This document shows positions 74 to 61,617 of a DNA stretch of 64,000 bases, piece after piece. The DNA is taken from positions 1,487,656 to 1,551,655 of the forward strand of contig NZ_AP014815.1 in assembly GCF_001548095.1 (NCBI RefSeq), read 5' to 3'. Under the pieces are notes generated by a model that worked only from the letters and a program-made list of their open reading frames with translations, did no database searches and was not told the origin of the DNA. Source of the DNA: Geminocystis sp. NIES-3708. Its GTDB lineage: Bacteria; Cyanobacteriota; Cyanobacteriia; Cyanobacteriales; Cyanobacteriaceae. The position numbers and the translations under genes are program-made. How positions within the stretch are numbered: position 1 is the first letter of the stretch; the number at the start of each line of letters is the position of its first letter.

Positions 74-265
74 ATGAATATTGACACTTTAAAAGATAAA
101 ATAAGATATTTAACCAATGAAGAAGAAAAAAAAACCGATGTTTTAATACCCCTAGCTATGGGGGAAAATATTTTACAAAACCTTCCCTTAGAAATAGAGG
201 AAGAAAATGATCATAAAACTCAATTAATAGCCGATTTTAAACAAAGCCTCCTCGATGCGGCGTAG
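74..265 (+). pseudogene. Antitoxin gene, 5' part, interrupted by the Tn3 transposon
   Basis: The open frame runs from ATG 74 into the transposon and stops seven bases past the insertion point at 258. Removing the element (259-4274) and one copy of the GATGC duplication joins codons 74-258 to 4280-4334. The result is a continuous 79-residue acidic protein whose end reads DARDGKTYPLEQLWDDNEL. The next ATG (4335) starts directly after the restored stop and begins a RelE-like toxin, so an antitoxin of a type II toxin-antitoxin pair is the natural reading. The antitoxin family is not assigned. The reconstruction is direct from the sequence; the function is inferred from order, size and the toxin. 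Confidence 0.7.
254..258. repeat. Target site duplication, left copy (GATGC)
   Basis: GATGC lies directly before the left terminal inverted repeat and recurs at 4275-4279 directly after the right one. Five base pairs is the normal duplication length for Tn3-family elements. Confidence 0.85.
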
Positions 266-335
266 AGCCGAGATACGTGCGAAATCGGACACCAATATCA
301 AGAAACCATGACATTTATAGTTGAAACGCTTATTC
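259..335 (+). repeat. Left terminal inverted repeat of the Tn3 element
   Basis: Aligned by eye with the reverse complement of 4198-4274, about 68 of 77 positions match. The longest identical block is about 18 bases (GCGAAATCGGACACCAAT). The outermost seven bases are the least similar (GGCGTAG against GGGGGGA). The repeat is about twice the usual 38 bp of Tn3-family ends. Confidence 0.88.
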
Positions 336-453
336 CCGTTAGGTTTCCAAAAATCTATTTTAACAAAACTAAATACTACATAACTGATTTAATCAACAGA
401 ATACTTCAATAAGAACGTTTAGATAACTAAATAAACTATAGACGGAAAAAACA

Positions 454-562
454 TTGCCGAGTTAATCATATTTTCGGCAAAGTACAATAGAAAGTAGTAT
501 AATTTTTAAAGGGTTAGAGAGATGTTAAATTTAACCACTCCACTTCTGTTTTCGGCAAAGTA
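454..562. other. Candidate cointegrate-resolution site of the tyrosine recombinase
   Basis: TTGCCGA (454-460) and TCGGCAA (474-480) form an inverted pair 13 bases apart. The 14-mer TTTTCGGCAAAGTA occurs at 471-484 and again as a direct copy at 549-562, 78 bases on and inside the first codons of the recombinase gene. An inverted core pair plus direct accessory copies next to the recombinase gene is how the IRS of Tn4430 is built. The repeats are seen; the function is inferred. Confidence 0.55.
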
Positions 563-1139
563 TCATTTTTCACCACCTCCAGTGAAGAAAAAATCAGACG
601 GTGAAAGGGAATATTTACGTCTTGATGAAATTAACGCCATGATCAAAGTAGCACGAAAAGTAGGAAGGCATGGAGTCAGAGATTCAACGATTATTCTTGA
701 GATGTTTCGTCATGGACTAAGGACAGCCGAATTGGTAGCATTAAGATGGGATTATATAGATTCAAAAGGAGGGCATATTGACATACATCGAGTAAAACAT
801 GGACATGATACGATACATCCATTACGTTCTCCAGAACTAAGAGCTTTACATGAACTTAAACGCAAGTATCCAGAAAGCAGTTATGTCTTTGTTTCTGAGC
901 GTCACGCACCCTTAACTACCCGTACTATTCGTCATATTATTGCGAGGGCTGGGAAATTAGCATCTATCCCCTTTCCAGTACATCCACACCAATTACGTCA
1001 TGCTTGTGGTTATTATTTGGCATCTCAAGGACATGATACCAGAGCAATTCAGGCTTATCTAGGGCATAAAAATATTCATTACACCGTTCGTTATACAGAT
1101 ATATCTCCCCAGAGATTTGAATCTTTTTGGCAAGATTAG
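522..1139 (+). CDS. Tyrosine recombinase (TnpI-like) of the Tn3 element
   Basis: This 205-residue tyrosine recombinase consists almost only of the catalytic domain. The active-site set is complete: Arg67 in HGLRTAEL, the His156-x-x-Arg159 pair in HPHQLRHACG, His182 in LGHKNI and nucleophile Tyr191 in RYTD. It lacks the N-terminal core-binding domain of XerC or of TnpI (about 280 residues), like the short FimB-type recombinases. GAGAG seven bases before ATG 522 is a reasonable ribosome site, although one recombinase repeat (549-562) then falls inside the coding sequence. Its end overlaps the transposase frame. The likely role is resolution of transposition cointegrates. It could instead act as a local invertase. 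Confidence 0.85.
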   Translation: MLNLTTPLLFSAKYHFSPPPVKKKSDGEREYLRLDEINAMIKVARKVGRHGVRDSTIILEMFRHGLRTAELVALRWDYIDSKGGHIDIHRVKHGHDTIHPLRSPELRALHELKRKYPESSYVFVSERHAPLTTRTIRHIIARAGKLASIPFPVHPHQLRHACGYYLASQGHDTRAIQAYLGHKNIHYTVRYTDISPQRFESFWQD

Positions 1140-2467
1140 TGACAAGTCATGTTTATAATATTGGAGTTTTGCAATTAATAATTAAACAAAAAAAAGTGAC
1201 CTCAATTGAAAGAACTGCTTATCCTCGCTTCAAACGTTATTATACTCCAAATGAGCTAAAAAATATTTATACGCCAACCACAGAAGATAAACTTTTCGCT
1301 ACTGAATATACAAGAAATGATAATAATTATTTGAATTTATTAGTTGCACTAAAAAGTTTTCAAAGATTAGGATATTTCCCCAAACTTGAACAGATTCCCT
1401 TATCAATAATAAATCATATAAAAAAAATATTGTGTTTATCTGAAGAACTAACAATTGGTTATATAAATCCGAGAACTTATCATCGCCATCAACATTTAAT
1501 TAGAGAGAAAATAAAAGTCAAAAAATTTGACAACAAAGCCCAAGAATATTTAGAAATAAAGGTAAAAGAAAAGGCTTATTTAATGGGAAATCCTGCGGAC
1601 TTAATTAATGTAGCCATTGAAGAATTAGTCAAAGAAAGATATGAATTACCCTCTTTTTCCTTCTTAGAGCGACAAATAGCCCGAATCCGAACATTAGTTC
1701 ATGCTCTAATTTATGAACAAGTGAATAATCAATTATCTCCTGAATATAGAGAAACCTTAAACAGTTTACTACTAATTCACCCAGTCGAACAAAGAAGTCC
1801 TTATAATCAGCTAAAAAAAGTCACCAAAAAAGCCACAAGAAATCATCTAAATGATTTATTATTACATCAAAAATGGTTAAATACTTTTGGTAATGTAGAA
1901 CAGTTTTTATCAGAAATAAACAAATCATTAATTAGTTATTTTGCCAGTGTAGCAAATTCTTTAGATGCTTCAGAATTAAAAGATATTAATGAACTAAAAA
2001 GATTGACACTTTTAATATGTTTAATTCATCGAAAACAAGAAAAAACTTGGGATGATTTGGGAGAAATGTTCTTAAAAAGAATGAAAAAAATTCAGAACTT
2101 AGCTGAGTTAGAACTACAAAAACAAAAAGAAAGACAACAAGAAATAATGGAAAAGTTGATTTCAGCTTTTGGGGAAATATTGATGTTATTTGGGTTGGAA
2201 AAAGATAAGCAAGAAAATCATAATGATACACTCTTTAATCAAATATATTCTTTACTCAAAACTTATGGTGGATATGAACAATTATTAGAAGAATACCAAG
2301 CTATAAGTGCTTATAAAGGGAATAATTATTTGCCTTTTATTTGGCGTTTTTATAAAAGTCATCGCAGTGCATTTTTTAGGTTACTTAATATTTTACAATT
2401 AGAATCTACCAGTACTGATAAGAGATTGATAGATGCCGTAAATTTTTTATCTTTAAAATCAACATAA
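1127..2467 (+). CDS. tnpA: Tn3-family transposase TnpA, N-terminal part (DUF4158-type)
   Basis: This is the N-terminal, DNA-binding part of a Tn3 transposase. It starts with the family hallmark SIERTAYPRF followed by YTPNEL, as in the DUF4158 domain. ATG 1127 overlaps the recombinase, and GTG 1196, just before TSIERTAYPRF, is a likelier start. The frame ends at TAA 2465 with FLSLKST. The homologous continuation (NQHKKGEYL, then VDLSFASQQW) lies in the next frame from 2457, so a +1 shift in the A run at 2455-2458 would join both halves. Together they give roughly 990-1010 residues, the normal TnpA length. Whether the shift is a mutation or is programmed cannot be decided here. Confidence 0.85.
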   Translation: MARLVTSHVYNIGVLQLIIKQKKVTSIERTAYPRFKRYYTPNELKNIYTPTTEDKLFATEYTRNDNNYLNLLVALKSFQRLGYFPKLEQIPLSIINHIKKILCLSEELTIGYINPRTYHRHQHLIREKIKVKKFDNKAQEYLEIKVKEKAYLMGNPADLINVAIEELVKERYELPSFSFLERQIARIRTLVHALIYEQVNNQLSPEYRETLNSLLLIHPVEQRSPYNQLKKVTKKATRNHLNDLLLHQKWLNTFGNVEQFLSEINKSLISYFASVANSLDASELKDINELKRLTLLICLIHRKQEKTWDDLGEMFLKRMKKIQNLAELELQKQKERQQEIMEKLISAFGEILMLFGLEKDKQENHNDTLFNQIYSLLKTYGGYEQLLEEYQAISAYKGNNYLPFIWRFYKSHRSAFFRLLNILQLESTSTDKRLIDAVNFLSLKST

Positions 2468-2549
2468 AAAAGGAGAATATTTATCGAGTGAAGTAGATCT
2501 TTCTTTTGCTTCTCAACAGTGGCAAAAGTTAGTAATTTATCAGAATGAA

Positions 2550-4178
2550 ATGGGCATAAAAATTTTTCGCCGTCACTTTGAGACTTGTATTTTTTCTTAT
2601 CTAGCTTTTGAATTAAAATCAGGAGATATTTGTCTCAAAGGAAGTTCTGAATATGCCGATTGGCGAACACAATTATTAAGTTGGGATGAATGTGAAGTTA
2701 TTGTAGATAATTATTGTGAAAATTTAGGTTTACCAAAAACGGCTCAAATTTTTGTTAATAATTTAAAAAGTTTCTTAATTCAAACAGCTGAAAAAGTTGA
2801 TTTAAACTATCCTAATAATTCGAGTTTAATTATTAATGATGAAGGAGAACCCATTTTAAAGAAAGTTACGAAAAATGAAGTTAGTTCTACTCTCAAAAAT
2901 CTTGAAGTTATCATAGAAGAAAGAATGCCTAATTATAACTTAATAGATATTCTTAAAAATGTAAATTATTGGACTAATTTTACCAGACATTTTGCACCTC
3001 TGAGTGGTAGTGATCCTAAAATTGATAATCCTACTGAACGTTATTTATTAACTACTTTTACTTATGGTTGTAATTTAGGTCCGTCTCAAGCAGAAAAACA
3101 CATGAGAGAGATTATTTCCTCAAAATTAATCTCTTTTATTAATCGCCGTCATATAAATACTGATAGTTTAAATAAGGCAATAAATGACATTATTAATCGT
3201 TATAATGTATTAGATTTACCCAAAGTTTGGGGTAACGGAAATGTGGCGGCGGCTGATGGTACTAAATATGATGTAAGAGAACAAAATTTACTCTCAGAAT
3301 ATCATATCAGATATGGTGGTTATGGTGGCATTGCTTATCATCATGTAGCGGATAAATATATTGCCTTATTTAGTCATTTTATTCCTTGTGGAACATGGGA
3401 AGCAGTATATATTATTGAGGGTTTATTTGAAAATAAATCTAACATTAAACCTGATACAATTCATAGTGATACTCAAGGACAAAGTACTCCTGTTTTTGCT
3501 CTATCGTACTTATTGGGTATTAAGTTAATGCCTCGCATTAGAAATTGGAAAGATTTAGTCTTTTATCGTTATGATAAAAATACCGTTTATCAACATATAG
3601 ATTCATTATTTACAGATACAATTAATTGGCAGTTAATTGAGACTCATTGGCAAGATTTAATGCAAGTAGTTTTATCTATTTATACGGGCAAAATATCCAG
3701 TGTTAGTTTATTAAGAAAGTTAAGTAATTATAGTAGAAAAAATCGATTATATAAAGCCTTTAGGGAGTTAGGAAGAGTGATTAGAACTATCTTTTTACTC
3801 GAATATATTTCTGATTTAGAATTAAGGCAACAAATTACGGCGGCGACAAATAAAGTTGAGGCTTATAATGGCTTTTCTAAATGGTTATTTTTTGGTGGAG
3901 ATAAGATTATTGCCACCAATGATAGAGAAGAAATGGAAAAAAGAATTAAATACAATGATTTAGTTTCTAATGCTGTTATTTTTCATAATGTTGTCGAGTT
4001 AACTAATATTTTACAGCAATTACAAAAAGAAGGTTATTTAATCGATAAAAAAGATGTAGCTTGTCTAAGTCCTTATTTAACCAGTCATGTGAAAAGATTT
4101 GGTGATTATCTTCTTAATCTTGCTGAAGTACCTCCTTCCTTAGAGCAATTTCAAATTGGCTCTTTGTTACAAAAATAG
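2550..4178 (+). CDS. tnpA: Tn3-family transposase TnpA, catalytic C-terminal part
   Basis: This carries the RNase H-like DDE domain of Tn3 transposases. Candidate catalytic residues are Asp236 (AAADGTKYDV), Asp307 (HSDTQGQS) and Glu437 (NKVEAYNGFSKWLFFGG). LMPRIRNWKDL after the second Asp is also typical. The frame is open from about 2457, well before ATG 2550, and its upstream residues (KKGEYLSSEV, DLSFASQQWQ) match the Tn3 family, so ATG 2550 is not a natural start and this is the second half of one transposase. No ribosome site precedes it. It would mobilise the element by replicative transposition if translated as a fusion. Confidence 0.9.
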   Translation: MGIKIFRRHFETCIFSYLAFELKSGDICLKGSSEYADWRTQLLSWDECEVIVDNYCENLGLPKTAQIFVNNLKSFLIQTAEKVDLNYPNNSSLIINDEGEPILKKVTKNEVSSTLKNLEVIIEERMPNYNLIDILKNVNYWTNFTRHFAPLSGSDPKIDNPTERYLLTTFTYGCNLGPSQAEKHMREIISSKLISFINRRHINTDSLNKAINDIINRYNVLDLPKVWGNGNVAAADGTKYDVREQNLLSEYHIRYGGYGGIAYHHVADKYIALFSHFIPCGTWEAVYIIEGLFENKSNIKPDTIHSDTQGQSTPVFALSYLLGIKLMPRIRNWKDLVFYRYDKNTVYQHIDSLFTDTINWQLIETHWQDLMQVVLSIYTGKISSVSLLRKLSNYSRKNRLYKAFRELGRVIRTIFLLEYISDLELRQQITAATNKVEAYNGFSKWLFFGGDKIIATNDREEMEKRIKYNDLVSNAVIFHNVVELTNILQQLQKEGYLIDKKDVACLSPYLTSHVKRFGDYLLNLAEVPPSLEQFQIGSLLQK

Positions 4179-4197
4179 ATTTACTGAACCGTAAGCA

Positions 4198-4274
4198 GAA
4201 TCAGCGTTTCAACTGTAAATGTCATGGTTTATTGACATTGGTGTCCGATTTCGCGCGTATCTCGGCTTCCCCCC
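4198..4274 (-). repeat. Right terminal inverted repeat of the Tn3 element
   Basis: This is the inverted counterpart of 259-335, beginning 20 bases after the transposase stop. Its outer end is CCCCCC on the plus strand (GGGGGG reading inwards), which fits the GGGG start of Tn3 ends better than the left copy does. Confidence 0.88.
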
Positions 4275-4279
4275 GATGC
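4275..4279. repeat. Target site duplication, right copy (GATGC)
   Basis: This is identical to 254-258. The codon phase across the junction restores the interrupted antitoxin frame. Confidence 0.85.
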
Positions 4280-4334
4280 TAGAGACGGTAAAACCTACCC
4301 CTTAGAACAACTTTGGGACGATAATGAGCTATAA
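4280..4334 (+). pseudogene. Antitoxin gene, 3' part, beyond the transposon
   Basis: In phase with the 5' part, this segment encodes RDGKTYPLEQLWDDNEL and stops at 4332-4334. The toxin ATG follows with no gap, the tight coupling usual in type II toxin-antitoxin operons. Confidence 0.7.
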
Positions 4335-5107: not shown

Positions 5108-6106
5108 ATGAAAGAAACAAAAATTATACTCGAACAAAAAATTCCCGTTCGCTTATTTATCACTGAAGAAGGAGAAAAATTACTAAGTTTAAATGACTTA
5201 AAAAAATTTATACTTGTTGATGAAGATGAAAAAGATAAAAATATACAAGAAAAAGAGTTAATTGATTATTTAGAAAGTTTAATTTCAGAATACCCAAATT
5301 TAATTCTATCTTCTTCTTCAGAATATCATGGAATCTATTATAAAGAAAAGAATAAAAATGCCAAAGAAAGTCTTTTTTATGTTCAACTCAGCAAAAAGTA
5401 TTATGCTTTTATCTATATAAAAAATAATCTTACTGAAGAAGATTTGCACCCTATATTGCATCAAATAACAAAAGTAGAACAATTAACACAAATTGAAATC
5501 GAAGAAAGAAATAATAGATTTCATCCAGATTATCCTGTTGAGGAGTTACCTACATATCACATAAAAGATAGTAATGTATGCTATTATATCCCTAAAATAT
5601 TTAGAGATAATTTTTGGTTAGATTTAAAATTGTATATTGTAAGCGAAATAGGAGAAGAAAATTATGATTTTTGGAATAAACAAGAATTTAATCCACTCAC
5701 ATCAAAAACCAAAGAAGATCTTTTTTTTGAGGGAGAAATAAACACTCTAAATTTACCTATACTCAATCAAGATTACTGGAAAAAATATAAGCCTCAATTA
5801 CAAAAAACATTAGTAAGTTATTATAAAGATGAACACTACAAAAATTATATTAGATATGAACTAGATGATCTTGAATACTTAGCAGGTTTAGCAGCAAATA
5901 AAGAAATAAAACCTTATGATGAATTCTTTTTTTCACAACTGGAAAAGGGAAATATTTTTGAATATATAATACAGCGAAAGTATCGTGATACTATAACCCT
6001 CAAACCAAAATCTCACAAAGAATTTATTTCTATCATGGAAAATATTTTTGAGTATAGGGTCGGTAAATATTTAGACTCAAAAAATAAAATATTCAATAGT
6101 ATTTGA
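5108..6106 (+). CDS. Unrecognised protein of 332 residues
   Basis: I do not recognise this family. It is rich in Lys, Glu, Asn and Tyr, has no signal peptide or membrane segment and no obvious metal or nucleotide motif. An acidic stretch lies at about residues 37-50 (VDEDEKDKNIQEKEL), and the central part is aromatic-rich (NFWLDLKLYIVSEIG). It starts at ATG 5108 after an A-rich leader (AAGAGAAAAAA). A hairpin covers its stop. It lies 168 bp before the orphan hsdR on the same strand, in an island of decayed defence genes, so a defence or anti-defence role is conceivable but unsupported. Confidence 0.5.
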   Translation: MKETKIILEQKIPVRLFITEEGEKLLSLNDLKKFILVDEDEKDKNIQEKELIDYLESLISEYPNLILSSSSEYHGIYYKEKNKNAKESLFYVQLSKKYYAFIYIKNNLTEEDLHPILHQITKVEQLTQIEIEERNNRFHPDYPVEELPTYHIKDSNVCYYIPKIFRDNFWLDLKLYIVSEIGEENYDFWNKQEFNPLTSKTKEDLFFEGEINTLNLPILNQDYWKKYKPQLQKTLVSYYKDEHYKNYIRYELDDLEYLAGLAANKEIKPYDEFFFSQLEKGNIFEYIIQRKYRDTITLKPKSHKEFISIMENIFEYRVGKYLDSKNKIFNSI

Positions 6107-6274: not shown

Positions 6275-8893
6275 ATGATGACAAGTCCTAGTACCTTTTT
6301 TAGTAAATTAAAATTTGTCACAATGGTCAGTAAAACTAACGAAAAAGCCCTCGAAGACTTGATACAAGAATGCCTCATCCATCAACAAGGCTATCACCTC
6401 GGAGAGAATAAAGACTTTAACCCCCAAATCGCCATAGACACCGCCAAATTATGGCAATTTCTGGAAACCACCCAACCCGAAGAATTAGACAAGCTCAAGT
6501 ATAAGCCCGATTGGCAGAAAATAGTATTAGATAGAATCGATCAAAAAATCAAGAGAAATAGCCTTTTACCCCTTCTCAAGAAAGGCTTAGATATTGATTC
6601 AGCACACCTCACCCTATTTTATAGCCAACCCTACAACGACTTAAACCCAGAAATCCAAGCCAACTTCCAGAAAAACATCTTTTCTGTTACCCGTCAAATT
6701 CACTTTTCCACCACCGACAAAAACCTCTCCATAGACTTAGTAATATTTATCAACGGCTTACCCATCATAACTATTGAATTGAAAAATCAATGGACAAATC
6801 AAACCGTTTACGATGCTAAAAAACAATACTGCGGAAGGGATTATCAACAACCATTATTAAACTTCGGGCGGTGTTTAGTACATTTTGCCCTTGATACCGA
6901 TGAAGTTTGGATGACAACCAGACTCAATGGTAAAAGCACCTATTTTCTACCCTTCAATAAAGGAAATAACAACGGCAAAGGCAACCCCATTAACCCTAAT
7001 GGGCATAAAACTAGCTATCTATGGGAAGATATTTTAAGCAGAAGTAGTTTAGCCAATATCCTTGAACATTTTGTCTTATTAGAAGGTAATCCGAAAGATG
7101 CGCTTAAAGATAAAACCCTTATCTTTCCCCGTTACCACCAACGAGACGTAGTTAATAAAATCCTGCTATCTGCTCAAATTAATGGCACTGGTAAAACCTA
7201 TCTAATTCAACACTCCGCAGGTTCAGGAAAATCTAATTCTATCACATGGTTAGCCTTTCAACTAATTCAACTCTATCCCCTTCCCCTCGCCAAAGTTAAT
7301 AACTTTACTACTAACCTTAATAATAACGAACCATCACAACAAGTTAGTAATTCCACTGCTAACCAAGACGATAACCAATCTTCACGGCAAATTAATAACT
7401 CTACGACTAATCAAACATCACAAACCGTTAGCAATTTTACTGCTAATCAAGATAATAACCAATCATCAGAGCAAGTTAATAACTCGACTGCTAACCCAAA
7501 TAATAACCATAAATCTACCAATAAAACAGATATTCCATTAGACGAGCCTTTATTTAACTCAGTAATAGTAGTAACAGATAGAACTAATTTAGATAGACAA
7601 CTACGGGATAACATCAAAGACTTTTCCGAAGTTAAAAACATTATCGCCCATGCCAAAACCTCCGAAGAACTCAAAAACGCCCTTGAAACAGGCAAAAAAA
7701 TCATTATCACTACCATTCAAAAATTTAGATTCATTGTCGAAGGCATTGAAGGATTAAGTAACAAACGCTTTGCCGTAATTATCGATGAAGCCCACTCCAG
7801 CCAAAGCGGTACTTCTGCTGATACCCTTAACATGACAATCAATAAGACTAATGACAATGACGACACAGAAGAAGAAATCCCCGAAGATAATCAAGATAAA
7901 ATCTTAGAGGTAATGAAAAACCGCAAATTAAGTAAGAATGCCTCTTATTTTGCCTTTACTGCCACCCCGAAAAATAGCACCCTTGAAAAATTTGGCATCA
8001 GACAAAGCGACGGTAGTTTTTTACCCTTTCATCTCTATTCAATGAAACAAGCCATCGAAGAGGGTTTTATTCTCGATGTTTTAGCCAATTATACCACCTA
8101 TAAAAGTTACTACGAGATCCAGAAATCCATTATCGATAACCCCGAATTTGATACCAGTAAAGCCCAGAAAAAGATAAAAGCCTTTGTGGAAGCCCATCCG
8201 AAAATGATCGCCACCAAAGCCGAAATCATGGTTAATCACTTCTTAGAAAACGTAGTTAAACCGAAGAAAATGAAAGGGGAAGCGAGGGGGATGGTAGTAG
8301 CCAAAAATATTACCACAGCGATTATTTATTACCAAGAGATACAAAAACTGCTCAAAGAGAATAACGCCGATTTTCAAGCTATTATCGCCTTTTCGGGCAA
8401 AAAGAAGGTAAATGGTATTGAACACACCGAGGAGAGCTTAAACGGCTTTCTTAGTAAGGATATAGAGAGCAAATTGCGCACCAATGATTACCTCTTATTA
8501 GTGGTAGCAAATAAGTTTTTAACCGGCTTTGACGAACCATTATTACACACCATGTATATCGATAAGAAAATAACAGGAGTTTTAGCAGTACAAGCCCTAT
8601 CACGGCTAAACCGTTGTAATAATAAAATGGGTAAGAATGATACTTTTATCCTCGACTTTGTTAACAGCACCACAGAGATAAAACAAGCCTTTGATCCTTT
8701 TTATACTGCCACTAGCCTTACCGAAGCAACCGATATAAATGTACTCCATGACTTAAAAGAAAGTTTAGATGGGTTGGGGGTATATGAAATTTATGAAATA
8801 AACCAGTTTAACCAGTTATTTTTCAAGAATGTAGAAGCGGAGCAACTTCATTTAGCAAATCATGCACCGATAAAACCCTTACCATTGCTATAG
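6275..8893 (+). CDS. hsdR: Type I restriction enzyme HsdR subunit, orphan and C-terminally truncated
   Basis: HsdR is the motor/nuclease subunit of type I restriction systems. The N-terminal nuclease core is visible (SIDLVIFINGLPIITIELKN, with the E-x-K pair). It is followed by Walker A HSAGSGKS (about residue 313), the DEAH box (about 503), FTATPKN and a motif VI region VQALSRLNRCNN. ATG 6323 (MVSKTNEKALEDLIQ) is an alternative start. At 872 residues it lacks about 150-200 residues of the C-terminal helical domain that docks on HsdM, ending in the unrelated PIKPLPLL. No hsdM or hsdS lies in the window. Residues 352-411 are a tandem repeat between motifs I and Ia. It is probably inactive in restriction. 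Confidence 0.85.
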   Translation: MMTSPSTFFSKLKFVTMVSKTNEKALEDLIQECLIHQQGYHLGENKDFNPQIAIDTAKLWQFLETTQPEELDKLKYKPDWQKIVLDRIDQKIKRNSLLPLLKKGLDIDSAHLTLFYSQPYNDLNPEIQANFQKNIFSVTRQIHFSTTDKNLSIDLVIFINGLPIITIELKNQWTNQTVYDAKKQYCGRDYQQPLLNFGRCLVHFALDTDEVWMTTRLNGKSTYFLPFNKGNNNGKGNPINPNGHKTSYLWEDILSRSSLANILEHFVLLEGNPKDALKDKTLIFPRYHQRDVVNKILLSAQINGTGKTYLIQHSAGSGKSNSITWLAFQLIQLYPLPLAKVNNFTTNLNNNEPSQQVSNSTANQDDNQSSRQINNSTTNQTSQTVSNFTANQDNNQSSEQVNNSTANPNNNHKSTNKTDIPLDEPLFNSVIVVTDRTNLDRQLRDNIKDFSEVKNIIAHAKTSEELKNALETGKKIIITTIQKFRFIVEGIEGLSNKRFAVIIDEAHSSQSGTSADTLNMTINKTNDNDDTEEEIPEDNQDKILEVMKNRKLSKNASYFAFTATPKNSTLEKFGIRQSDGSFLPFHLYSMKQAIEEGFILDVLANYTTYKSYYEIQKSIIDNPEFDTSKAQKKIKAFVEAHPKMIATKAEIMVNHFLENVVKPKKMKGEARGMVVAKNITTAIIYYQEIQKLLKENNADFQAIIAFSGKKKVNGIEHTEESLNGFLSKDIESKLRTNDYLLLVVANKFLTGFDEPLLHTMYIDKKITGVLAVQALSRLNRCNNKMGKNDTFILDFVNSTTEIKQAFDPFYTATSLTEATDINVLHDLKESLDGLGVYEIYEINQFNQLFFKNVEAEQLHLANHAPIKPLPLL
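7328..7507 (+). repeat. In-frame tandem repeat inside hsdR
   Basis: There are three 48-bp units and one 36-bp unit. They encode the pattern Q-x-S-x-x-V-x-N-x-T-A-N-Q-D-x-N (EPSQQVSNSTANQDDN, QSSRQINNSTTN, QTSQTVSNFTANQDNN, QSSEQVNNSTANPNNN). It is flanked by more Asn/Thr-rich sequence from about 7300 to 7530. Unit length is a multiple of three, so expansion keeps the frame. Confidence 0.85.
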
Positions 8894-9718
8894 TGTTTAA
8901 GTGGGCGATTAATCGAGGATATAAACTACCAAAAAAGATTAGAAGAAGACTGAGGCACGGGATTATTTTGAAGACTATAAAACCTTCTCTATCCCATATC
9001 TCTGGAATGTCATAAAAATTATGACAAAGGTGAAATAATTAACCAAATTGCTACCGATGATAACTTGGATTATTTGAATGGTAAAATTAAGAGTGAAGTT
9101 ATACTTAGTAAGGAAATTAAAGATATTGATGGAGGTAAAAAACAGACAACAAGCAATGATTTGAGACTTCGACAAGCCCCTGAGCAGATTGATTGTATCA
9201 GTTAGTACATCGCTCCGCTCATCAACGACAAGCAAAAAGAGTTATTAGAAAACTCAAATAATGACTTTGTTAAGCATATAGTTAATTAAAATAACACTGA
9301 GACAGTTAGAAAAAATATGCAGGATTAATAATGCTCACAAATCAAGGTTTTTCAGAATTTTTAATATTATTAAACTGTTTCATTCTTATTTAAAATCACT
9401 ATAACTCCCATAAAAAAGATTATTTCCCCGACAACATAATTGCCGAAATTTGCCTTCAAGGATTAGTTTTTATTCAAAAACACAACTTTTTAAATTTGAT
9501 TTTGTCAGTAAAGTTTTCCTATATTTGTTTACAATAAAAATACTAATATCTTCATTCATAAGTATTTTTCCTCTCGTTTAGTATCTTCTACTCTCACCAA
9601 CAAACTTTTTTATCACACCTGAATTAGATGTTTTAATATCGTCGATTTTGCCTTAGAATAAAGATAATATTAACTTTTGTTAAAAATATTAAAATATATA
9701 TCATACTTTAATTTTATA
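8894..9718. other. Decayed non-coding stretch after hsdR
   Basis: No intact gene is seen. Short coding-like scraps occur on the plus strand in different frames: about 8896-8951 (LSGRLIEDINYQKRLEED), 8958-9030 (RDYFEDYKTFSIPYLWNV) and 9023-9140 (DKGEIINQIATDDNLDYL, then KIKSEVILSKEIKDIDGG). They look like remains of restriction-system or other accessory genes broken by stops and frameshifts. The family of the scraps is not identified. Confidence 0.45.
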
Positions 9719-18380: not shown

Positions 18381-18992
18381 GTGGAAATATCACAAGGTGT
18401 TCAATTTGTAGCGTTTGGAATCCTTTCTGTCATGATGATTGGAGCGGCTTTAGGGGTAGTTTTATTAGATAATATTGTTTACTCCGCTTTTCTTTTGGGA
18501 GGAGTATTTATAAGTATATCGGGTTTATATCTATTACTTAATGCCGATTTTGTTGCCGCCGCACAAATTTTAGTTTATGTTGGTGCAGTCAATGTGCTAA
18601 TTCTGTTTGCAATTATGTTGGTGAATAAAACCGAAAATTTTCAACAAGTAAAAGGTAGATGGATTCGTAAAATTGCCACTGGTTTAGTTTGTCTTGGCTT
18701 ATTTGCTTTATTAAGTACAATGGTTTTAGTTACTCCTTGGCAATTATCCACAATTTCTCCGTCTGTCATTGAAAACACAATTGTGATGATTGGCAAACAT
18801 TTCTTTAGTGATTATCTTTTACCTTTTGAAATTGCTTCTGTTTTACTTTTGATGGCAATGGTAGGAGCAATTATTTTAGCCCGTAGAGATTTAATTCCTA
18901 CAGCTCAAAAAACAAGAGAAATATATACTACTTCTTTGACGTTACCAGAGAAACCTAGAGACTTAATTGAAGCAGGTAGTGATAAGAATTAA
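18381..18992 (+). CDS. ndhG: NAD(P)H-quinone oxidoreductase subunit 6
   Basis: NdhG is a membrane subunit of the NDH-1 proton-pumping arm. It is 203 residues with a GTG start (VEISQGVQFVAFG). Five hydrophobic helices are visible (e.g. VQFVAFGILSVMMIGAALGV, IVYSAFLLGGVFISISGLYL, IASVLLLMAMVGAIILARRD). The conserved loop AQILVYVGAVNVLILFAIML holds the helix-3 pi-bulge region. It lies 53 bp after ndhI and before ndhE, as in other cyanobacteria. Confidence 0.96.
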   Translation: MEISQGVQFVAFGILSVMMIGAALGVVLLDNIVYSAFLLGGVFISISGLYLLLNADFVAAAQILVYVGAVNVLILFAIMLVNKTENFQQVKGRWIRKIATGLVCLGLFALLSTMVLVTPWQLSTISPSVIENTIVMIGKHFFSDYLLPFEIASVLLLMAMVGAIILARRDLIPTAQKTREIYTTSLTLPEKPRDLIEAGSDKN

Positions 18993-19063
18993 TAATTAAT
19001 AATTAACAATTAATAATAAGTAATTAGAGGGTAAATAAATCTTAGAAATAAAGATCTTAAATT

Positions 19064-26776: not shown

Positions 26777-27062
26777 AAATAGATCAATTAATTCATGGAA
26801 CTATTCATATTTTACTTGGATCTTGCACTAACAATAAAAGATACAAATAACCACGATTAGCTTTAGAAGTGAAGGATTAACGTGATTTTTGTTGCCTATT
26901 GTTTCTTTAACTTTATTGATGATTCATTATTAATTGTTAATTATTAATTGTTAATTGCCAATTGTTACTTGTAATTAGTACCATTTTAAGAGAATATAGT
27001 TTTGGTGTTTTGTACCCAATATGTCTCGAAATTAGAAAAAAGATTTAAGAGTATAAACTTAT
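26777..27062. promoter_or_regulatory. Divergent spacer between trpC and efp
   Basis: This 286-bp region between divergent genes must hold both promoters. It contains the dispersed repeat (26814-26831) and a run of TTAATTGTTAATT-type heptamer-like repeats (about 26926-26972). Such AT-rich short tandem repeats recur in several spacers here (17670, 18990, 19376, 41745). No operator was recognised. Confidence 0.5.
26814..26831 (+). repeat. Dispersed repeat ACTTRGATCTTGCACTAA, copy 1
   Basis: This is one of three copies in the window (also 39339-39357 and 55074-55092). This copy has G for A at position 5. All three have the same plus-strand orientation and lie upstream of minus-strand genes. Confidence 0.75.
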
Positions 27063-61565: not shown

Positions 61566-61607
61566 AGCTATCAACTATCAACTATCAACTATCAACTGGC
61601 AACTGTC
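61566..61607. repeat. Heptamer tandem repeat (AACTATC)n
   Basis: There are six 7-bp units: AGCTATC, AACTATC three times, AACTGGC, AACTGTC. This is a short tandemly repeated repetitive sequence of the type common in cyanobacterial spacers, between miaB and pheA. Confidence 0.85.
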
Positions 61608-61617
61608 AATCAATAAC

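Follow-up and report, generated by a model that had tools for sequence, protein, structure and literature searches.

The window, a stretch of 64,000 nucleotides from the cyanobacterium Geminocystis sp. NIES-3708 (C1:1487656-1551655 of a six-contig genome), contains a truncated gene for an HsdR-like Type I restriction subunit in the remains of an hsd locus (Table 1). The genome, comprising a chromosome of 3,883,409 bp and plasmids of 60,790, 57,874, 17,905, 16,994, and 5,106 bp, was assembled from GS FLX+ and MiSeq reads, and the repeat array analyzed here is undiscussed in the genome paper (PMC4424290).

The open reading frame (ORF) at 6275-8893 encodes 872 amino acids, or 856 when counted from the start shared with relatives, and has domain matches to HSDR_N, SWI2/SNF2, ResIII, DEAD, and Type I R domain 3. 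The HSDR_N nuclease domain scores 64.6 bits against PF04313 (cutoff, 25.1), and D138, E152, and K154, which we take to be its catalytic D..E.K residues, are invariant across 83 sequences. Domain matches and structural comparison also identify an SF2 translocase motor, including motifs I, Ia, and II. The whole-protein score for TIGR00348 (206.2 bits) is below the cutoff of 284.55, for which truncation and the insert described below may both be responsible. The C-terminal part is incomplete: similarity to three full-length relatives stops at 8847-8848, and ∼235 to 241 residues are missing compared to these relatives, which total 1,015 to 1,059 amino acids.

Table 1. Features of the hsd locus and its repeat array (window coordinates)
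Feature	Position	Strand	Sequence or remark
Tn3-family element	259..4275	+	Separates the hsdS end from the rest of the locus; bounds deduced from pCHL69-1
Tyrosine recombinase of Tn3-family element	522-1139		
Transposase of Tn3-family element, two frames	1127-2467 and 2550-4178		
Truncated hsdR	6323..8893 (listed ORF starts at 6275)	+	Resembles full-length relatives to 8847, then ∼15 unrelated residues and a stop
88-residue loop, whole	7277..7540	+	Flanked by conserved AFQLIQLY and DEPLFNSV
Repeat unit 1	7295..7342	+	VNNFTTNLNNNEPSQQ (48 bp)
Repeat unit 2	7343..7390	+	VSNSTANQDDNQSSRQ (48 bp)
Repeat unit 3	7391..7426	+	INNSTTNQTSQT (36 bp)
Repeat unit 4	7427..7474	+	VSNFTANQDNNQSSEQ (48 bp)
Repeat unit 5	7475..7522	+	VNNSTANPNNNHKSTN (48 bp)
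DNA joined to broken hsdR end	8848..9092	+	85% identity to part of plasmid contig C3 of NIES-3708

Other parts of the locus are also broken. Upstream of the window, only a C-terminal remnant of hsdM is left, with a longest open piece of 231 amino acids, DNA identities of 96.1% over 559 bp and 88.2% over 457 bp, and a protein match that runs across seven stops, some of which a frameshift may have caused. The hsdS gene has an in-frame stop between its two halves, and the Tn3-family element is inserted beyond its end; the flanks of this element (1-258 and 4276-4325) are contiguous, with a 4-bp overlap, in plasmid pCHL69-1 of Cyanobacterium sp. HL-69. All three genes, hsdM, hsdS, and hsdR, are open by reading frame in pCHL69-1 and in plasmid pGM3709_02 of Geminocystis sp. 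NIES-3709. The truncated hsdR, the hsdM remnant, the hsdS stop, and the Tn3-family element therefore identify the window locus as a decaying copy, which is probably plasmid derived. NIES-3708 has two further HSDR_N matches, so that the strain may have other working systems, and hsdM-like genes elsewhere in the genome; these genes or the HSDR_N proteins may provide help in trans.

The interval between hsdS and hsdR has a different set of genes in every relative, comprising hypothetical genes and several annotated as toxin-antitoxin pairs; the window ORF at this place (5108-6106) matches no Pfam or NCBIfam model. Beyond the broken end of hsdR, a ∼130-bp stretch at 9277-9405 has 14 further places in its own genome, six nearly full-length and nine partial places in NIES-3709, and some places in four other genomes (G003, G004, G007, and G014), with at most 34 candidates scored in each genome. 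Its ends pair in the folded strand, with a folding energy within chance (z = −1.13), and it is possibly a MITE.

The hsdR ORF contains five tandem in-frame units at 7295-7522, between HSAGSGKSNS and VIVVTDR, which we take to be motifs I and Ia of the motor. A sequence-only reading had described a 16-residue Asn/Ser/Thr repeat encoded by a 48-bp minisatellite within the HsdR motor core, and unit calls, self-match, and shuffling all confirm such a repeat, although its bounds are corrected to those given here and its unit lengths to 48 bp for four units and 36 bp for the other; as had been proposed, unit length preserves the frame. Ungapped self-match of the array peaks at 0.70 at an offset of 132, with lower peaks of 0.59 at 84 and 0.56 at 48, and a self-match of 0.70 was reached in none of 5,000 codon shuffles. 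Tandem Repeats Finder (TRF) reports a period of 84 (48 plus 36; 1.8 copies, 7332-7485), as one unit is 12 bp short. The array is uneven: its units share 61 to 81% pairwise identity (i.e., differ by 19 to 39%), and their 76 residues are 72% N, Q, S, and T, with N and Q contributing 43%.

The predicted disorder of this segment is borne out by structure modeling. In the AlphaFold2 model used (83 sequences; mean pLDDT, 80.2; an earlier 13-sequence model was poor, with a mean of 61.9), block means of pLDDT are 26 to 39 over residues 331 to 400 (numbered from 6323), while the model is confident for the elements on either side of the loop, after the Walker A segment and at the motif Ia strand. Read most simply, the loop would depart from the fold as a disordered segment without disturbing it. 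HsdR of EcoR124I (PDB 2w00 and relatives) shares the domains of the window protein and provides its best structural matches (Z of 23.6, root mean square deviation of 4.0 to 4.3, 572 to 574 residues aligned) but has only a short link at the position of the loop, and the window protein, unlike EcoR124I HsdR, lacks its C-terminal end.

Matches to hsdR at an E value of 0.001 or better are present in 8 of 15 genomes of the family, and five of these, that of NIES-3708 included, have a close relative of the gene. Loop length differs among four family members: 88 residues in the window, 68 in pCHL69-1 (G005; ∼4 degenerate units, read by eye), 44 in pGM3709_02 (two units), and 31 in a full-length gene on a draft contig (G009; no clear units); the fifth genome (G012) has a broken copy. 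The closest relative is the full-length gene of pGM3709_02, the DNA of which is 94.7 and 95.7% identical to that of the window gene on either side of the loop. Repeat number is thus not identical in all relatives, as a refutation of length variation would have had it, but differs between species, with five versus two units in genes that are ∼95% identical in DNA.

Outside the family, the loop is nearly absent. An order-level draw of 388 genomes contained 65 with a match at an E value of 1e-60 or better, 60 of them outside the family, and 1 to 3 residues replace the loop in 50 of the 51 that could be measured (53 two-piece rows); the sole exception, G131, has a run of N within its loop. Nine genomes (G106, G146, G205, G231, G241, G260, G284, G321, and G331) were left out of this count since a piece was missing, on another contig, overlapping, or ending far from the loop. 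A contig scan with the window protein alone as the query gave no matches, while a scan with an alignment gave the best 80 of 588 relatives; among these 80 loci, from many phyla, the distance from motif I to motif Ia is 24 to 37 residues in 79, and the remaining locus (L096) has no recognizable motif pair. Five more distant HsdR-like loci within the family have 20 residues between the motifs, and 18 of 25 loci (L026 to L050) have 23 to 25 (L028 reads N across the loop, and the motif pattern missed six). A scan of viral contigs gave two relatives, at 39 to 40% identity, which were left aside. These short distances indicate that, among the genomes examined, the long insert is special to this family. 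The view that this site has little room for insertions describes most HsdR proteins, in which the distance is well conserved, but not the four family members that carry inserts there.

The body of the gene is constrained. Between the window and NIES-3709 copies, dN/dS is 0.068 for the body (754 codons) and 1.06 for the loop (44 codons, with only five changes); across six pairs of relatives, values are 0.058 to 0.079 for the body and 0.17 to 1.06 for the loop in the five pairs for which it was computable. Changes on the window branch (29 synonymous and 8 nonsynonymous) nearly equal those on the NIES-3709 branch (29.5 and 7.5; 19 codons ambiguous), and the window copy therefore does not look long dead. 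With no relaxation evident in its lineage-specific changes, either the break is recent or the remaining fragment was still of use.

Relative to the window loop, that of NIES-3709 is shorter by 132 bp, the combined length of two 48-bp units and one of 36 bp. The best fit to its first unit is a chimera that follows window unit 1 over 21 bases and unit 4 thereafter (two mismatches, versus five for window unit 1 alone), as a deletion by recombination between units would produce. The first unit of HL-69 is similar to it as well, so that an ancestral state of two units, with growth in the window lineage rather than loss in NIES-3709, is also conceivable. Change by in-frame units would alter protein length but would not switch hsdR on and off.

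Arrays of this kind are not confined to hsdR. HsdM of pGM3709_02 (L023, 4310-7093) has three separate insert places with in-frame repeats of their own: HL-69 and G009 both have short links at the first place and nothing at the second, and at the third, HL-69 has its own repeat insert and G009 a short one. A large unannotated ORF present on two NIES-3709 plasmids (L143, 26183-26838, and L226, 15775-16430; copies 99.6% identical) consists in part of ∼20 tandem 11-residue units (ITQNNNAHTQE and variants). On the NIES-3708 chromosome, an ORF of 2,875 amino acids has ∼37 tandem PPVE tetrapeptides (L145, 12358-12808).

When stop-to-stop stretches of at least 150 amino acids were counted and simple patterns were used to exclude known structural repeats, samples from the two Geminocystis strains showed nonstructural in-frame arrays in 34 of 188 ORFs on plasmids, compared to 23 of 431 on chromosomes (odds ratio, 3.5; bootstrap 95% interval, 1.9 to 6.4; length and GC in the model; copies of one gene counted once, reducing 432 and 193 ORFs to 431 and 188). 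Geminocystis chromosomes show no general excess of coding repeats over those of a control cyanobacterium (G149), with 23 of 432 ORFs (12 of 286 in NIES-3708 and 11 of 146 in NIES-3709) versus 13 of 246. Compared to plasmids of Synechocystis, the plasmid excess is weak (34 of 193 versus 4 of 63 in 100 kb from two plasmids; P = 0.04), and pCHL69-1 is intermediate (4 of 38 ORFs). The counts suggest that protein-coding minisatellites are common on Geminocystis plasmids, and this excess may reflect a mutational property of these plasmids or relaxed selection on their genes. That in-frame minisatellites are born or tolerated unusually often on these plasmids, and that plasmid residence drives the disordered repeat loops of HsdR and HsdM, is a tentative suggestion that we regard as rather doubtful.

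We consider it likely that the array is an in-frame minisatellite that has expanded within a loop permissive of length change, in a Type I restriction subunit of plasmid type from the Geminocystaceae, and that it is passive in NIES-3708. Slipped-strand or recombination events involving imperfect copies would probably have added and removed units, and changes in multiples of three would have been retained since the loop projects from the first motor domain as a disordered stretch tolerated by the remainder of the protein. In NIES-3708, loss of the C-terminal end and decay of the hsd locus suggest a lack of function, and the array would most likely be passive inheritance. Tolerated growth agrees with the four loop lengths, the 132-bp difference of the NIES-3709 loop and its chimeric first unit, the confinement of array matches (E value of <0.001) to orthologous loops in the 15 family genomes, the dN/dS of the loop compared to that of the body, the low pLDDT, the HsdM inserts, the plasmid excess, and the breakage of the gene. 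Against it, changes in the window copy show no relaxation, partners may act in trans, and the direction of unit change is ambiguous. Furthermore, in-frame lengths and a composition rich in N, Q, S, and T persist in three relatives, which could mean that the loop itself is selected.

A selected disordered spacer, rich in N and Q and with a function of its own (e.g., binding, condensate formation, or escape from antirestriction proteins), would explain why composition is retained in these relatives despite sequence change and would accommodate the similarly N/Q-rich inserts of HsdM and of the large unannotated ORF on NIES-3709 plasmids. It is nevertheless unlikely, as the G009 loop is short and has no clear repeats, nearly all measured genomes outside the family manage with 1 to 3 residues, and loop dN/dS ranges well above that of the body. 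Quite improbable is a contingency locus in which unit number tunes HsdR activity in living populations: units keep the frame and their number differs in close relatives, as expected of such a locus, but they are uneven, and imperfect copies slip less than identical ones. The sequence-only reading suggested that repeat number could vary between cells, but truncation of hsdR and breakage of its neighbors hsdM and hsdS make a working length-variable restriction enzyme unlikely in this strain. Arrival of a dispersed or mobile repeat in hsdR was rejected as highly improbable; multicopy short elements do occur in Geminocystis genomes (e.g., that at 9277-9405), but the array DNA has no match at an E value of <0.001 outside orthologous loops in the 15 family genomes (at most 40 candidates scored per genome), and a 17-base core with one mismatch allowed was found at nine places, four of them in hsdR loops and the other five at chance level (four in the reversed control). 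For the selected spacer, a possible comparison is the disordered region reported for Rho of Bacteroides thetaiotaomicron (PMC10284900).

The closest parallel is provided by the TAEL repeats in HsdS of the Type IC systems EcoR124I and EcoR124II, which are likewise tandem and in frame, lie in a Type I restriction subunit, and differ in copy number between close relatives, a difference attributed to unequal crossing-over (PMC3874165). The TAEL repeat, as described there, is a four-residue helical spacer that alters target spacing, in contrast to the mostly 16-residue disordered units of the window HsdR, which have no known effect. The hsdS of Mycoplasma pneumoniae is, by the title of the report, another Type I subunit with a repeat number that differs between isolates (PMC8836594), whereas the variation described here is between species only, in HsdR, and in a broken gene. 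Among the titles listed by literature searches, which are not proof of absence, none concerned repeats inside HsdR or minisatellites in the coding DNA of cyanobacterial plasmids. The window loop is a frame-keeping, species-variable repeat in a truncated HsdR, not a demonstrated switch, and as such is an instance of the known variable tandem repeats of proteins that is unusual in its place. Loops of 31, 44, 68, and 88 residues at one position of a translocase constitute a natural series on the tolerance of a motor core for disordered inserts.

Shorter tandem repeats, with units of seven bases, are present elsewhere in the window at 18983-19026, 26926-26976, and 61568-61609. Heptamer repeats are a known type of seven-base tandem repeat in cyanobacteria.
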